Both the position numbers and the translations under genes were made by a program. The notes beneath the pieces are model-generated. The model was not told the origin of the DNA, did no database searches, and saw only the letters and a program-made list of their open reading frames with translations. A DNA stretch of 64,000 nucleotides from Dichetophora obliterata. Taxonomy: Eukaryota > Arthropoda > Insecta > Diptera > Sciomyzidae. Position 1 is the stretch's first letter. Each line of letters opens with the position of its first letter. The stretch spans positions 51,611,253 through 51,675,252 of the forward strand of contig OY986438.1 in NCBI GenBank assembly GCA_963920525.1. Reading direction: 5' to 3'. This document shows positions 10,512-53,622 of this stretch, piece by piece.

Positions 10512-12311
10512 ATATTTAACTTAAGTGTCCTATCTGGAAGATTTCCTGACCAACTCAAAGACGCAATTGTTATTCCGCTTTTTAAAACAGGTTGCAGGAG
10601 AGATACTAATAATTACAGACCTATTTGTTTGTTATCTTCAATTTCAAAAATTTTTGAAAAAGCCCTTAAGGCGAGGATTTTAGCTTTTCTGAACAGACAA
10701 CATGTTTTCAGTTCTTGTCAGTACGGATTTAGAACTTGTCTCTCAACTGAAGACGCACTACTTGATTTCTGTACATCGATTTACAAAGGTCTTGATGATA
10801 AGAAAACTTGTGCTGGCCTCTTTGTTGATATAACAAAGGCTTTTGACATGGTTGACCACAATATTCTTCTGAAAAAACTGCATAATGTTGGCTTTCGTGG
10901 CTTTATTTACAATTGGCTTATGTCTTTTTTGAATTGCAGAAAGCAGAGAGTAAAAATTTGTAGCGAACTAAGTGACTCTAAATGTTTAAATATAGGAGTT
11001 CCCCAAGGCTCTGTACTTGGTCCGGTTCTATTTCTAGTTTATATTAATTCGCTTTTTTCTCTAAATTTTGCTGGTAAAGTTACTGCTTTTGCCGATGATC
11101 TAGCCATTGGGTATGCATCAGTTAACCCCTTTAACTTAATTGCAGATATAAATCATGACGTTTATTTACTGAGAGTTTGGTTTGCAGAACATAAGTTACT
11201 TGTTAGCAGGAAGACTAAAGAAATGTATTTTAGCTTATGTAATATAGTATCGCCGGAAATTGATATAAGTTTTCATGGTTATGATTGTTGTCGATTTAGA
11301 TTAACATCGGATACGAGTCATGACATGGGTTCAACCTATAACAGTAGAATTCCTTGCAGTACTAATTGCTTTGTTGTCGAAAGGGTTCCTTGCTATAAAT
11401 ATTTAGGTGTAATGGTTGATGAACATCTTACCTGGACCGCACACATTTCATTGCTGAAGAAATATCTTTTTTCTTCATTACGATGCTTTTATAAACTAAG
11501 ACATTTTTGTTTTGAAAGTACATTAACTAAAATATACTACGGGATTTTTCATTCTAGATTACAATATGGTGTGAGTTGCTGGGGAGGTGCTTATCTGAAT
11601 AATATACGTCCCCTGTTATTATTACAAAAGAGTGCCGTTAGAATAATCTGTAAAGTAAATCGCTTGACTGCATCTATTAATCTATTTAGGCGTCTAAAGA
11701 TCTTACCATTAAGGCATCTGTATTATTTTAAAGTTCTAAAAATATTTTTTAAAAGAAGTGGGTATATGCAGAATCCCATATATGGTAATTACAACTTAAA
11801 AACGAACCAATATTCTACCGTGACTGTTCCAGTTTTTCGCACAACCCACTATCGTAATTTTTTTTCGATTTTATCTTATAGACTTTACAATAGACTCCCT
11901 GCAAGTATACGCCTTGAAAGAAATTTGAGTACTTTCTTAAGAAAAATAAAATTGTGGATCTTTGAGTTAGACCACTCGGAAGTTGAATTTTTGTTGCGCT
12001 CCATTAGCTAATTTTTGTTTGTTCTTAATTTTTTAGACAGAAATAATTTTTTTCTCTTCTAATAATAATTGTTAATATTTATAACTTTTTTTTAATTATA
12101 TTGTTTGATTCAATTCACCCCACAAAACACTTTTTATGTTAACACAATTAATTTAGTTTTATATATTTATTGAAGTGGAATTTAACACTATTTATTCTAA
12201 TTCTAAATGTCAATACTATTCTTATAAGTAATAATTGTTTTAGTGATTGTATTTTTAATAATCTTGTCAAAACTTTTTTACTATGAGAATAAAGAATAAT
12301 AATAATAATAA

Positions 12312-15117: not shown

Positions 15118-16997
15118 CGTTCAATATTCTACTTACTTACTTACTTAGTTGGCGCTACAACCGTATGTCGGTCTTGGTCTCATCTAAGAATTTGAATTTG
15201 CGCCAGACATTTCTGTCTTTCGCTTGCTGGCGCCAGTTGGAAATTCCAAGCTTCGTCAGGTTGTAATCTAATTGGTCTTTCCAAAGAAGATGCGGTCGTC
15301 CTCTTCTGCGTTGACCACCGCTGGGTACCGAATCGAATGTTTTCTTCACTGGAGCATCATCTTTCATGCGCTGAACATAACCAAGCCAGCAAAGCCGCTC
15401 GATTTTAATGCGCTTGACTATGTCGATGTCAGCGTACAGCTCATACAGTTTATCATTCCACCGTATTTGGTAGTCGCCATTGACGCAGATTGGTCCGTAG
15501 ATCTTACGAAGAATCTTTCTCTCGAATGCTCCTAAAGTCTTTTCATCTAAACTGCTCAACGTCCAGGTTTGTGATGCGTAAAGTAGGACGGGCATGATGA
15601 GCGATTTATAGAGCGTAATTGTCGTTCGTCGAGAGAGGGCTCTGCCTCTCAATTGCCTTCTGAGCCCAAAGTAACACCTGCTGGCAAGAGTTATTTTTCG
15701 TTTGATCTCAATGCTGATGTCGTTGGTTGAGTTAATGCTGGATCCCAGATAAACGAAGTTCTTCACAACCTCGATGGAGGTATTGTCAATGGTAACGTGG
15801 GTTCCAAGACGCTGATACTGTTTGTTTGTTGATACCAAGTATTTCGTCTTATCTGGATTCACTGCCAGACCCATTCGACTTTACTCTTTTTCTAATCTGG
15901 AAAATGCTGCACTGACTTCGCGCGTATTATGGCCAATGATATCGATGTCATCAGCATACGCAGGCAGCATAACACTCTTGTAGAATATTGTGCCACTACG
16001 TCTCAGATCAGCAGTTCGGATGATCTTTTCCATTATTAGGTTGAAAAAGTCATCCGATAAGTAATCACCTTGTCTGAAACCTCGTTTGATAACAAATGGT
16101 GGGGAGAGGTCCTTCCCGATTTTAGTTGCGCTGCTGGTGTTGCTCAGTGTCATCCTGCAAAGTCGTATTAGTTTTGCAGGAATACCAAATTCAGACATGG
16201 TGGAGTACAGGTGCTTCCTTATTGAGCTGTCGAAGGCGGCTTTGTAGTCGACAAAAAAATGGTGGGTGGCGACTTGTTTTTCTTGAGTCTTCTCCAAGAT
16301 TTGTCGTAGCGTGAAAATCTGGTCGATGGTGGACTTTCCAGGTCTGAAGCCACACTGATAAGGTCCAATCAGTTCGCTTACAATGGGCTTCAATCTTTCA
16401 CATAAAACGCTCGACAGGACCTTATATGCGATATTAAGAAGGCTTATCCCACAGTAATTGGCATTCTTGTGGATTGGGCAGAGCACTCTGAGATTCCAAT
16501 CGTTCGGAATGCATTCTTCCGACCATATTCTGCATAGAAGCTTGTGAATGCATTTAAGTAGAGCTTCGCCTCCGTTCTTAAACAGCTCAGCAGGTAAGCC
16601 ATCAGCTCCCGCGGCTTTGTTATTTTTAAGCCGAGCTATAACTGTCAGAACTTCATCATAGTCGGGCAGCGGAATCTCGACGCCGTCATCCGAAATTGGG
16701 GTTTCCGGAATATCATCTCTATTGGTGGGATTGTTGTCAGCGTTGCCATTTAGAAGCTGGGAGAAGTGTTCCCTCCATAACGTCAGTGTACTCTGGACAT
16801 CTGTCACTAGATTCCCGTTTTCAACCTTGCAGGAAGAGGCCCCGGTTTTAAAACCCTCGGCAAGGCGTCTTATTTTTTCAAAAAATTTTCGATCCTCATT
16901 CCTGTCACCATGCATCTCAATCGTCTCCTGCTCGTGCTTTTCTGCATTTCCTTTTTTCCGCCTAAAAATACGTCTCTCTTCACGTTCAATATTCTAC
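15118..16997 (-). mobile_element. RTE-type LINE, 5' truncated, 15-bp TSD
   Basis: CGTTCAATATTCTAC is found at 15118-15132 and 16983-16997, directly around the copy (15133-16982). On the minus strand the 3' end is a short (TAAG)n tract next to the TSD; short tandem tails of this kind are typical of RTE elements. The 5' end is cut within the region before the RT. Confidence 0.9.
15155..16915 (-). pseudogene. RTE-type endonuclease-reverse transcriptase, RT and C-terminal part
   Basis: Two frames in the same phase, 16915-15881 and 15874-15155, are separated only by a TAA (15883-15881). Visible in order: RLKNNKAAGADGLPAELFK, ISLLNIAYKVLSS, CGFRPGKSTIDQIFTLRQIL, FFVDYKAAFDS (motif A, D), RGFRQGDYLSDDFFNLIME (motif B) and AYADDIDIIG (motif C). 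After the stop come YLGSSINSTNDISIEIKRKI, the VLLYASQTWTL block and RRRGRPHLLWKDQ at the C-terminus. A few residues are missing before ANYCGISLLN (family usually has a longer link), a small in-frame deletion. The nonsense codon makes it a pseudogene, but it is otherwise well preserved. Confidence 0.9.
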
Positions 16998-45141: not shown

Positions 45142-45490
45142 TCAAAGAACCAAGGCATGCGCCTTATACAAACAAGGTTTGGTCTTTGATCTGAAAGGAA
45201 AGGGATAGATTATTTAGAGGAATTGATTGGAACTGTACGTGAATTATTGATAAGGGGAAACAACTGCTAGTGTTATGCCTTAACCTCGGCAAGCTTTTCA
45301 AGCCCTTAGTTGTTCCATTCCTTCAAATTTTCCACAATTTAGTTGTGAATTTTTAATTTTCCATAATTCTTAAATGTAGGACAAAGAAAGAACAAAGAAA
45401 GTGAGAAGAACCATGCCCGAGCCCGGATTCGAACCAGGGACCTTTGGGTTGAGAGCCTAGCGCACTCTCCACTAGACTACAAAGGCCGGG
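45109..45490 (-). mobile_element. tRNA-derived SINE, family 2 (copy D)
   Basis: Minus strand: head GCCTTTGTAGTCTAGTGGAG (A box) and GGTTCGAATCC (B box), body with AACCTCGGCAAGCTT-like and GGCGCATGCCTTGGTTC words, then an A-rich tail (T24 at 45110-45133). A sister copy lies at 62548-62935. Confidence 0.85.
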
Positions 45491-47818: not shown

Positions 47819-48115
47819 TGTGCTGGCAGTGTGTTGGCTTTTTTTTCTATTTCATCTGCCTAAATATATAACCACTCACATTTTACGACACTCCACCAAA
47901 CATATGAAAACAAAAAATGTTAATGACATTGTTAGGGTCCAAAAAAGTTAATAATTATAAGCAGCGTACCCTATATTCATTAAGAGGGTCCCTGGGGACC
48001 TTTAAACGAGCAACCAGTAATCAGATTAGTACAGGGTTGTCCATATTCGAAGCGCCCATCTGGCAACACTGTAACTTTCCGCAGTGATGCCAAATCGACT
48101 AATGACATACCGCGT

Positions 48116-48841
48116 TTGAAGCGTCATTCCAAGCAAATGTTTACAATGGAACAGTACACGCCACGCGAACGCTCTAAAATTGTTGAAATTTACATTCAAC
48201 AAAACAAGTCAATAGTGAAAACTCAACGTGCTTTCAAAAAATTTCAGTTGAACGGAACGGTAAACAAACAAAATTGCCGTATTTATGCCACTGAAAATCC
48301 ACAAGAGATTCAAGAGGTACCTCTTCACGATGCAAAAGTCACTGTTTGGTGTGGCGTTTGTGCTAAAATGCTCATTGGGCCGTTCTTTTTCGAAGATGAT
48401 AATGGCCACAGAGTTACTGTCAATCAGGAGCGTTATCGCGATATGATAAACAATTTTTTCATGCCAATCGTTCGTCGAAAGCATATCAGGCACTACTGGT
48501 TTCAACAAGACAGCGCGCCACCACACACAAGCCGCACTACAATCGATTTTTTGAAGCAATTGTTCCCTGGCCGTTTGATGTAAAAAAATGGTGATTTCGA
48601 TTGGCCGCCAAGATCACCAGATTTAACGCCTCCAGACTTCTTTTTGTGGGGTTATTTGAAATCAAAGGTTTACGTCAACAAGCCAAAGACCCTAGAAGAG
48701 CTGAAAACCAACATCCGTCAAGAAATAACCGCCATTCCCATCGAAATGTTGAAGAAAACTATGGAAAATGCTGCAAAACGTGCACAATATGTCGTAGAGG
48801 CCAATGGCGACCATTTACGAGATATGACGCGCACAGAATAA
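48116..48841 (+). pseudogene. mariner-type transposase (DUF4817 kind), deleted and interrupted
   Basis: N-terminal EQYTPRERSKIVEIYIQQNK is followed by a deletion join (AFKK to FQLNGTVNKQN) that removes the rest of the DNA-binding region and the first catalytic D (the SDE block). Then come TVWCGVCAKMLIGPFFFEDD, HYWFQQDSAPPHTSRTTIDF (second D), an in-frame TAA at 48581, and DLTPPDFFLWGYLKSKVYV (third D). The true C-terminus ...GDHLRDIIFKK is split: the last residues are coded at 53486-53506, after the insertion. The apparent DMTRTE end is contributed by the inserted element. Confidence 0.85.
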
Positions 48842-49185
48842 AAACATTGTGTTATATTTCACAGAAGAAAGACGCTTACGAAATTTTGCCTGCGTAAAAA
48901 GAAGTTCTCTCTGCAGCGTGCTTGTGAATTTTGCATGTATGCGTGACCGCTTGTACTCTTCGTTCATGATCGTTCGTTCTTTTTTTTTTGTGTGCTTTTG
49001 TCTTCAATCAATAATAACTTTAATATGTATCAACGTTGTTGAGTGGGGGTTTTTCGTTATGTGAAAAAATAGGACATTCTTTCTAATATCATTTGAAAAG
49101 AAGTGTGTATGCTTAATGGTTGTGCAGGTGTTCTTTTGTTTCTAGCTTTTGATTTAAGTTATTGTGATTATTAAGGTTTGAAAAT

Positions 49186-52100
49186 ATGCAAGAAGAAATT
49201 GCTGGTAAGTTCTAATGTATGGGTTAAGTAAAAATTATTCTTATTGAGCTTAACTTTTAGATGCAATAAATCCAAAAAAAAGACAAAAGCGATTGAAATA
49301 TCGAAAACAAAATATTGCAAAAGAAAATGTTGAGCGTGGCAGAGAACATACAACAGTCAGTGGAAAAATTATTACAGCAAAAAAATTTCAAGGACAAGTT
49401 ATTTGCAAATGCAATAAAGATTGCTGCAAAGATATTGATATTGTTCGCCAGAAAAAAATTTTTGATAGTTTCTACAATGTATCTAATTGGACACAAAAAA
49501 CTTTACTGATCCGATCAACAGTTAAGAAGATTGCGGTCTCTCCTAAGCCAAGACCTATTGTTCCATTAAGGGCACATAAACATAATTTTGAATATTCATT
49601 AGAAGATGATGATGGAATACATCGAAAAGTTTGCAGGACGTTTTATATGAAATGTTTAAGCCTAACGTCGTCGCGAATACAAAGTGCTTTAAAAACTGCG
49701 ACAAGAAACCCCAGCGCTATCGAGGCTCGCGGACGAGCTCCTCCAGCAAATAAAACCTTGGAGATCGATCGCCAAAATGTTATAAATTTCATAAACCTTT
49801 TTCCGAAGTACGAATCGCATTACAGCCGTAAGAAATCCGAAAAAAATATTTGCACCCTAATTTAAACTTAAGGAAGTTTTACGAAGAATATAAAAGTTCT
49901 TGTGAAGCAAAGAACGCTAATGTTGTTTCCCATTATGTCTTCAGTGAAATTTTCAACAATAATTTTAATTTAAGTTTTAAACTCCTGCACACAGATACGT
50001 GCAAAACTTGCGATCATTTACAATGCGCTTTAAAAGCAACCCTTGTGCAAGCAGAACTTGATGAACTTAAAGAAAAACAACAGAAACATATGGAATCCGT
50101 GGAAAGGGCATGCAACGAATTTAAACAAGACGTAGATAAAGCTACTCAAAATAGATGTTCAGCAGTTTTGACATTTGATCTCCAAAAAACATTGGAAACA
50201 CCTGCATTGACAACATCAGTTGCGTATTATAAGAGGCAATTATGGACGTATAATTTGTGTGTATTTGATGAAGTAAAAAAAAGAGGTAAGTTTTCAATCT
50301 TCATTCTTCTACTTTGCATGCAAAGCAAATTTAACAGGTTACAGCATAATGTTTTAAGGGGAAAATACGTTTTAATATAGTGAAACTATTTTTTACAGCT
50401 ATTCTATATTAAATGAATAAAAAAATTATATATTACACCATACGACAGCACTTTTCACACACGAAGTAAACCATATACACGTGAAATTAGAGACAAAGGA
50501 TAGTAAAACTGTGTTCTCACTTTTTCTCTAGAACGTCTTTAAAAAATTTATTTAAATACTTAAATCCTTAAATGAGAGAAGACAATATTGTCATGCTTTG
50601 AAAGTTTAAAGTATTTAAACAAACATTTTTAAGCAATTCTTTTTTTAACTTAAAAATTCTTAAAAAAAATTCTATAGTTGTTAAGAAAAAGTGAGTACGC
50701 AGTTTTACTATCCTTTGTCTCCAGTTTCACGTGTATACGGTTTACTTCGTGTGTTATAAAATGTTCCCATAATTGTTTAGGAAGTTACGCTCAAACTTTT
50801 CTAATTGAATCTACTAACGAAATAAAAACATAATTTCAGTAACAATTGATTTTTACTAAAATAAAAGTAAATTTAATGGTAAAAGTAATACTAAAGTAAA
50901 AAAATTTTATAGTTTATTTAAAGATTTTACGAAATATTCCAATTTTAGGGAAATCGATATAAGTTAAAAATTTCCTAAATTTTAAAATATAATAGATATA
51001 TTAATACTAGCTCAATTTTCGTTTGAGGTGTCCTTATAAAGGTAATAAAAAGTGATTTTAACTCAAACCTAAAAAACAGTTCTAAAATTTTTAATAATGT
51101 ATTATTATGATGTACAGGTTTTTGACTACTATTTCTTAAATGTAATTTGAAATGAAAATATAAAAATGAAATTTTTCCCCTAAGTTTCTCCACTTGTTTG
51201 GAGACATCTTCAGGGGAGATTTTTTATTTTTACAAAAAGCACAATATTTAAAAATTTACCAAAACAGTTGAACAAAAAGACCAAACCTCGGGAAAAATAG
51301 AATGTAAAATAGAAAATAGAAAAAAATAGAAAATAGAAAAAGCAATTTTAAAATGTAATGGTCAAAAACATCCACATCATACATATTAAATAAAATATTT
51401 GTTGAAATTCGTAAAAAAATTACAATAATTTTACTTATAATCTCGAAAAAGTTAACAGAAATGTTTCAAGGGACATTTTTTGACCTTTTTTGAATTATTT
51501 ACTTTTCTAAGTCATTTTAAAAATACAATAATGCATGTATACAATAATATAAAATATGCAGGTGTTGCCAAACAAACGGTTGGTTTAAAAACTCATACGC
51601 TCAAAAAATTTAACTAAAATGTAAAATTCTTAGAGCGGTACGTTTACGCTGAAACTCGATTATTTGCCGAGCGATTAACTTTTGCGCGAGTTAACTTTTT
51701 CGCGATTCTACGTATTTGTTATTATTAAAATTACTATTAATGTCATAAACAGGCGACAATGTTAGCTTAATAAGCATATTTTTGTTATTAATAGGATACA
51801 TGTACATATGGAATGAAAGCGTTGCCTCAAGAGGAGGGCAAGAAATTGGGTCATGCTTTATTTACCATTTGCAAAATCACATACTTGATTCAACGGAAGA
51901 AATTGTTTTATATTCAGATTCTTGTGGAGGACAGAATCGCAACATTAAACTTGCAGTACCCCTGAAGCATTTTTTGGCATCTTCTAATATAAAAACAATC
52001 ACTCAAAAATATTTCATATCGGGTCACAGTTATAACAGTTGCGATAGATGTTTCAGCTTGATAGAAAAATACAAAAAAAAAATCGAGGTTGTGCCAACTC

Positions 52101-52567
52101 CAGACGCTTGGCTAAACATAATAGCGGAATCTAAAAAAAATGAACCAAAGTTTCATATTAAGAAAATGGAAAGTGCTGACTTTGTTAGTTCCAAAGAACT
52201 GGAGAAGCTGATTGTCAACCGAAAAGTCGATATTACTGGACAGAAAATAAATTGGTTTAAAGTTGAAAAAATCACGCAAGAAAAGCAAAATATATTCCAA
52301 CTTATTTTTTTCACCGCAAATTTGACACATGTGGTAAATTTAAAAAAGAGAAGTGTATGTGAGGAAGAATTTAAGACGGTGCATTTGTCTTGTTTGTATC
52401 CAGAAGGGAAAGCTATCACAAAAGCTAAATACTTAGACCTTCTTCAGCAAATGAATTTCATTCCTATAGAATCTCGTCACTTCTTTCAAAATTTGAAGTA
52501 CGAAAACTGTTCAGATATCGACTATGGTATTGTAAGCGATGGCAATGATGATGAAAATATTTGTTGA
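49186..52567 (+). pseudogene. putative DDE-type transposase gene, three exons, one frameshift
   Basis: Exon 1 is 49186-49204 (MQEEIA..), donor GTAAGT, 56-bp intron, acceptor at 49260. Exon 2 runs 49261-50285 and exon 3 51795-52567; intron 2 is 1509 bp and holds a MITE. Joined length is about 605 residues. Visible: a basic start (KKRQKRLKYRKQN), a Cys cluster (CKCNKDCC, residues about 45-55), ESHYSRKKSEK, a CKTCD pair, then AVLTFDLQKT (first D), YYKRQLWTYNLCVFDEVKKR, YMYIWNESVASRGGQEIGSC, IVLYSDSCGGQNRN (second D) and SGHSYNSCDRCFSLIEKY (D/E candidate). The hydrophobic-strand-then-D pattern is that of an RNase-H-fold nuclease. The A run at 49840-49846 is one base short (7 A), shifting the frame inside ...KSEKKYLHPN. 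From memory, insect proteins of this type are listed as uncharacterised (DUF7869). Confidence 0.75.
50457..50754. mobile_element. 298-bp MITE in intron 2 of the transposon gene
   Basis: Inverted arms of about 75 bp starting ACACACGAAGTAAACC and sharing CACGTGAAA, GACAAAGGATAGTAAAACTG and CTCACTTTTTCT. TSD unclear. Being intronic, it need not disrupt the gene. Confidence 0.75.
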
Positions 52568-53055
52568 ACACAACTTTTTATACATTTTTATGTTTTTATA
52601 TTGTTTTTTTTAAATTGATTTTAAGTGAAATATTTTTTTAGTTCTTCTGTTATCATATTGATTTTTTATTTAATTTTAAATGAAATATTTTCCTTATTTA
52701 TGTTTAATTAGTAACACAAATTTTTTCCTAATGTGGCTTTAAAATCATTCAAATAAAAATAAATAAAACTAATTATTAAATAACTTGCATTAATTTAATT
52801 TTCTTAGACGATATACATAAATAATTGGCTGTATTAAAAACTGAATGCAAAATTGCCTTCATAAAATATATTATAGCGAGTTTGCATCCAAGTCAGCATC
52901 GCTTGTTGACCAAAGCAGCAACAAATAAAACCAATAACGAACGAAGAGTACAAGCGCTCACGCATACATGCAAAATTTACACGCACGCTGCAGAGAGAAC
53001 TTATTTTAACGCTGGCAAAATTTCGTACGTGTTTTTCTTCTGTGAAATAAAACAC

Positions 53056-53464
53056 AATAAGGCTTCTCATCTAAGCATGTAACTGACCCGTAAACATTGT
53101 AAACCTTGTGAACTTACATGCGCGTAAACTATCTGTCAAAATTTGTATGGGCGAGAGTTTACATCATTTCCGAGCCTATTTTGTAATGTAAACTAGCATG
53201 TAAATCTACGTGTGTGAATGAGGGTTGTCTTTGGCGCTAATCATTACATATTTAAAGTAGTTGAAGTAAATATGAACACGTTTTATTTATTTTTCTATGT
53301 TAATGAAGGTTTTTAAAAGGTTTAAAATTTAAAAAAGCTATAATGTTGTCACAGCAGCAGCCGCCATTTTGTCGACATTTACACTATTTACACTTTATCG
53401 CTCATCAAAAGTTTAAATGCTATACATGTTTACAAGTTTACATGCTTAGATGAGAACCCTTAAT
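53056..53464. mobile_element. 403-bp MITE in the right TIR of the 48.8-kb transposon, TSD AAT
   Basis: Element 53059-53461 with ends AAGG(C/G)TTCTCATCTAAGCAT in inverted orientation and AAT on both sides. Removing it with one AAT makes the right TIR of the host transposon match the left TIR base for base across the junction. GTAAAC words recur inside. Confidence 0.85.
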
Positions 53465-53622
53465 GTTTTTATTCTGTGCGCGTCATATCATATTCAAGAA
53501 ATAATGTAAGCAAATCTACTTGAACCCAATTAAATGATATTCATGACGAACAGACAAAAAATTGTGGTTTCTTTGATTTATTTAAAAATAAAATAGGCGC
53601 TTCGAATATGGACAACCCTGTA

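Follow-up and report, generated by a model that had tools for sequence, protein, structure and literature searches.

A probable Sola-like DNA transposon with a DUF7869 gene in the genome of the fly Dichetophora obliterata

Within a 64,000-nucleotide stretch of the Dichetophora obliterata genome (contig OY986438.1, positions 51,611,253 to 51,675,252; hereafter the window) lies an element (W, 48826-53484) with long terminal inverted repeats (TIRs) and a gene of the DUF7869 type, and we are confident that it is a cut-and-paste DNA transposon of the autonomous type that probably belongs to the Sola superfamily (Sola2-like). Taken together, the DUF7869 genes that lie between TIRs with 4-bp duplications, the three aspartates on a predicted RNase-H core and the insertion-sequence-like relatives in bacteria indicate that DUF7869, to which Pfam gives no function, is a transposase domain.

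Ends, copies and target-site duplication

The window element starts with GACGCGCACAGAATAAAAAC and finishes with the reverse complement of this sequence, and ATAT adjoins it on either side, as a preliminary description made from the letters of the window had stated. That description also gave the TIRs as 150 bp; the matching ends were correctly recognised, but the repeats are about 140 bp and the 3' TIR is split by a nested miniature inverted-repeat transposable element (MITE) of ~403 bp. In the window the inverted arms comprise 125 nt of 90% identity (48846-48970 / 52934-53058) and a perfect outer arm of 28 nt, flanking ATAT included, and the uninterrupted TIRs of copies L010 and L011 are 140 bp long and 93.6% identical. 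With the nested MITE the window element measures 4659 bp, as against 4249, 4254 and 4260 bp in L009, L010 and L011.

ATAT is a palindrome, and the window copy alone therefore cannot tell a 4-bp ATAT duplication from a 2-bp TA duplication with a TIR that begins TGACG. A search of the 1.31-Gb genome with the TIR, which the preliminary description had proposed, gave matches at 34 places, 30 of them covered by the loci examined plus the window. Seven copies have two ends, and the 4-bp flanks match in all seven: ATAT in W, L009, L010, L013 and L016, AAAT in L011 and AATT in L014. The last two exclude the TA duplication and settle the length at 4 bp, which bears out the target-site duplication (TSD) first proposed. 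Furthermore, ATAT adjoins the single end found at nine loci (L012, L015, L019, L021 and L024-L028, the last base of the end being altered in L019), and at L020, L022 and L023 the ends are interrupted by MITE sequence.

Three of the copies (W, L009 and L010) sit in different flanks, differ pairwise by 0.26-0.45% and have in common a 1-nt frameshift in an A-run of exon 2 (49840-49846). The shared frameshift, the low divergence and the different flanks indicate that a broken copy apparently moved recently, in trans, and on this comparison of sequences the window element is recently mobile. The position of the frameshift in an A-run makes an assembly error possible.

The transposase gene

A three-exon gene with GT-AG introns was recognised in the preliminary description, and this structure stands; its 605 codons, however, are a read-through count because exon 2 carries the frameshift. 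The copy, which had been called nearly complete, is not intact. The cysteine cluster noted ahead of the core blocks was located in the N-terminal part of the protein, in exon 2. Intron 2 also holds an inverted repeat (50452-50759) whose 83-nt arms are 88% identical; it may be a MITE that was nested here at an earlier time.

Other DUF7869 elements in the genome

Searching the genome with a homologue of the window protein, P0003, gave 74 matches, of which 73 were scored among 2027 first-look candidates. Thirty P0003-matched loci were examined; four belong to the window family (L030, L031, L043, L045) and 26 are others, among which L029 and L055 are two halves of one element. Ends were sought only within 1.5 kb either side of each of these 26 loci, and paired TIRs were found at 15 of them, with three further end types (GACGGTCC, GAGCCG and CTGTGG) and an exact 4-bp flank repeat in 14 of the 15 (ATAT, AATT, ATTT, ATGT). 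The boundary is fixed by non-palindromic sites (AAAT, ATTT, ATGT) for the GACGCG and GAGCCG types, and for the CTGTGG type two different target sites agree on it. Pooling both sets, the 4-bp flanks match in 21 of 22 insertions; when the right flanks were shuffled 20000 times, 8.86 matched on average and 17 at most. The 22 left flanks are ATAT (13), AATT (6), AAAT (1), ATTT (1) and ATGT (1). TIRs lying apart from the gene elsewhere would, according to the preliminary description, have spoken against a transposon; what was found is four end types in this genome that enclose a DUF7869-type gene.

Bacterial relatives

A scan of bacteria, with one genome per species, yielded two DUF7869 loci among 55 pattern matches. 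In Desulfocicer vacuolatum (L060) an open frame of 657 aa, which matches DUF7869 at E 9.5e-19, lies inside 43-bp perfect inverted repeats, and in Candidatus Thiomargarita nelsonii (L059) the gene is split over two frames within 35-bp TIRs that have ATTT on both sides. Both loci are insertion-sequence-like elements, rare in bacteria, that encode proteins of the DUF7869 type, and no NCBIfam model reaches its cut-off on these proteins. DUF7869 is rare in the phylum of L060, occurring in one of 297 sampled genomes, namely that of L060 itself, and it was found in none of 14 control genomes. Twelve pattern matches in viral contigs included no relative, and plasmids gave no match to the L060 protein. 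The insect relatives come from two database listings.

These loci bear on the idea that the TIRs are those of a different transposon, which took up a DUF7869 gene from its host. Capture would allow for a shortened copy bearing these TIRs, and L014 (1382 bp) is such a copy; however, a DUF7869-type gene lies between the ends of every type, the four of this genome as well as the two of bacteria, and the window element wholly contains no open frame of 90 aa or more apart from the three that make up this gene. We give capture a very low probability.

The DUF7869 protein

Pfam scans support DUF7869 (PF25273) as the sole family. The window protein matches it at E 1e-5 (25.7 bits, cut-off 26) over residues 383-504 of 605, which form the latter portion of the core of the transposase, and 8 of 11 diverse members are matched at E <= 0.1 (best 3.8e-13). 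The uncharacterised domain named in the preliminary description was thus the right one. Three aspartates are conserved among 237 listed proteins: D309 in 233, D385 in 235 and D431 in 236. Position 438 holds Glu in 220 and Asp in 13 of the 237, and Lys in both bacterial proteins. E438 was therefore rejected as the third catalytic residue; L059 and L060 keep the three aspartates, which makes D309-D385-D431 the likely triad. As read from this alignment the triad is in all likelihood DDD and not DDE.

A homologue is predicted to fold with an RNase-H core like that of the DDE/D RNase-H transposases, so that the nuclease fold first suggested is upheld by prediction, with DDE the less likely of the two forms it had allowed. 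Mos1 / SETMAR transposases and retroviral integrases, groups with TA or 4-6-bp duplications, resemble the protein in fold only, no sequence relation having been found. P0003 has a second Cys/His site (C248, C251, H278), and this site and the N-terminal cysteine cluster are putative DNA-binding elements.

The DUF7869 transposase profile is also matched by two database records from Frankliniella fusca, named Proline--tRNA ligase (P0211, 92% coverage of the first query) and 30S ribosomal protein S12 (P0237, 94%); both are probably mis-named or fused gene models.

Classification

The Sola superfamily, in a published account (PMC10741241), comprises elements of mostly 2-9 kb with a DDD transposase, a 4-bp TSD, TIRs of 11-1124 bp and variable termini, found in bacteria and metazoa. 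The window element shares these features, likened by description only: the 4-bp duplication is present in 21 of the 22 two-ended insertions and in L059, and is not clear in L060; the aligned proteins point to a DDD triad; the size is ~4.25 kb with TIRs of ~140 bp; and relatives occur in insects and at two bacterial loci. Amoebozoan Sola2 elements have ATAT, AAAT and ATTT duplications (PMC3627910), and the left-flank counts (n=22) agree with the A/T-rich 4-bp TSD of Sola2 (ATAT, AAAT, ATTT, AWWT). The same paper describes Sola2 of Dictyostelium fasciculatum and Polysphondylium pallidum, which resemble the window family in their A/T-rich 4-bp TSDs, large transposase gene and TIRs; however, their TIRs are 12-21 bp as against ~140 bp, and the transposase of one has 888 aa as against ~605. 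A Fanzor1 gene is also described for those elements. The Sola-like placement made initially from the 4-bp TSD thus gains from the DDD triad, size, TIR length and range from bacteria to metazoa, and on these published descriptions we consider Sola membership likely.

Alternatively, the DUF7869 elements may form their own undescribed DDD superfamily, distinct from Sola, rare in bacteria and very abundant in insects, and marked by N-terminal Cys domains of its own and by strict use of 4-bp A/T-rich targets. Besides the want of a function in Pfam, this would agree with the literature search, in which neither the word DUF7869 nor six motif strings were found, with the names of relatives among the matches listed (uncharacterized, unnamed, hypothetical, DUF7869 domain-containing, or unrelated) and with NCBIfam, no model of which reaches its cut-off on three members. 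Yet the published Sola features that were compared are all present, and Repbase may already contain DUF7869 elements; we hold a separate superfamily to be unlikely. The literature search returned no paper that joins Sola, transposase, terminal inverted repeats, 4 bp and ATAT.

A relative of Kolobok or piggyBac would share the 4-bp duplication and, for Kolobok, the RR..YY termini (GA..TC in the window), but TTAA occurs at none of the 22 sites, so that the TSD sequences largely refute it. The C/DxxH motif common to Kolobok, hAT, P, MuDR and Dada, which lies between the second and the last acid, and the TTAA target of Kolobok are described in PMC9587614; the motif is seen at the histidine of GHS in one of 20 aligned proteins (P0005, read by eye). 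Kinship with either group is very improbable. A Tc1/mariner placement was also rejected, the sites being AAAT, AATT, ATTT and ATGT in place of a TA duplication.

Several observations weigh against a DUF7869 transposon of the kind proposed. As regards the ends, L017 and L018 have an altered first TIR base and non-ATAT flanks, the flanks of L040 (ATAT/ATAA) are an imperfect repeat, those of L060 are AAAT/ATTT with no clear 4-bp duplication, and no end pair was seen within 1.5 kb at 11 of the 26 other loci. The end motifs behind the pooled count were chosen after the flanks had been inspected, and for the GACGGTCC type, at which AATT, a palindrome, is the sole site seen, the boundary is placed by analogy. 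As regards the gene, no copy among W, L009-L013 and L016 retains a complete frame, and both introns are predictions from sequence. As regards the protein, Foldseek alone gave no match at E <= 1e-3 against PDB or viral models (best 1.9e-3, TnsB), and no PDB sequence relative was found.

Proposed mechanism

On the transposon reading, the ~605-aa transposase would bind the ~140-bp TIRs and pair the ends, cleaving at GACG..CGTC by means of its predicted RNase-H-fold core with the probable triad D309-D385-D431. The 3' ends would then be joined with a 4-bp stagger to A/T-rich target DNA, chiefly ATAT, and gap repair would give rise to the 4-bp duplication, frameshifted copies presumably being supplied with transposase in trans.

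Host element, nested MITE and other features of the window

Table 1. Features of the transposon and of the element that it entered (positions in the window)
Feature	Position	Strand	Remarks
Host, degenerate Tc1/mariner-like transposon	48032..53620	+	25-bp TIR CAGGGTTGTCCATATTCGAAGCGCC; TA at 48030-48031 and 53621-53622
Left TSD, ATAT	48822..48825	.	
5' TIR, ~140 bp	48826..48975	+	starts GACGCGCACAG; inverted arms; 34 genome matches; L010/L011 TIRs
Exon 1, 19 nt	49186..49204	+	ATG start, inferred
Intron 1, 56 bp	49205..49260	+	GT-AG
Exon 2	49261..50285	+	frameshift, N-terminal Cys cluster, probable first catalytic Asp (FDLQ)
Intron 2, 1509 bp	50286..51794	+	GT-AG; database homologues span junction in single protein
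Exon 3	51795..52567	+	probable second (YSDSCGGQN) and third Asp (GHSYNSCD), DUF7869 region, stop
3' TIR, inner portion	52934..53058	-	inverted-arm search
Nested MITE, ~403 bp	53059..53461	.	splits 3' TIR; probable 3-bp duplication AAT (53056-53058, 53462-53464)
3' TIR, outer end (..GCGCGTC)	53462..53484	-	inverted arms, copy ends
Right TSD, ATAT	53485..53488	.	

The preliminary description had the element breaking a host gene. Removing the insert and one ATAT does restore the final codons and stop of the host (..HLRDIIFKK-stop), but the host is itself a degenerate Tc1/mariner-like transposon: its protein has a DUF4817 helix-turn-helix (E 5.6e-5), and its C-terminus, the part of the transposase that the insertion struck, matches the Sleeping Beauty transposase 5cr4 (E 2.2e-4). 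The host frame has decayed, with an earlier stop present and the middle apparently missing. Among the loci examined, no other copy spans the junction.

The nested MITE sequence is without match in the near-identical copies L009 and L010. MITE-like sequence breaks the TIR of several copies at nearly identical positions, 20-23 bp inside its outer end: W and L012 are interrupted in the 3' TIR, and L020, L022 and L023 in the 5' TIR. The L012 insert differs in sequence from that of W, and the interruptions in L022 and L023 may be one event.

Elsewhere in the window, reverse transcriptase open frames (RVT_1) at 10629-12011 (+) and 15881-16915 (-) are probably retrotransposon pieces, and a candidate tRNA-Glu (CTC) gene is predicted at 45414-45486 (-), possibly a tRNA-derived repeat.

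Significance

Proteins with DUF7869 are common in insects and are currently annotated as uncharacterised. Recognition of DUF7869 as a transposase domain would help annotators to separate such genes from genes of the host, and the low-divergence copies in D. obliterata are available as test material for a poorly studied group of transposons.
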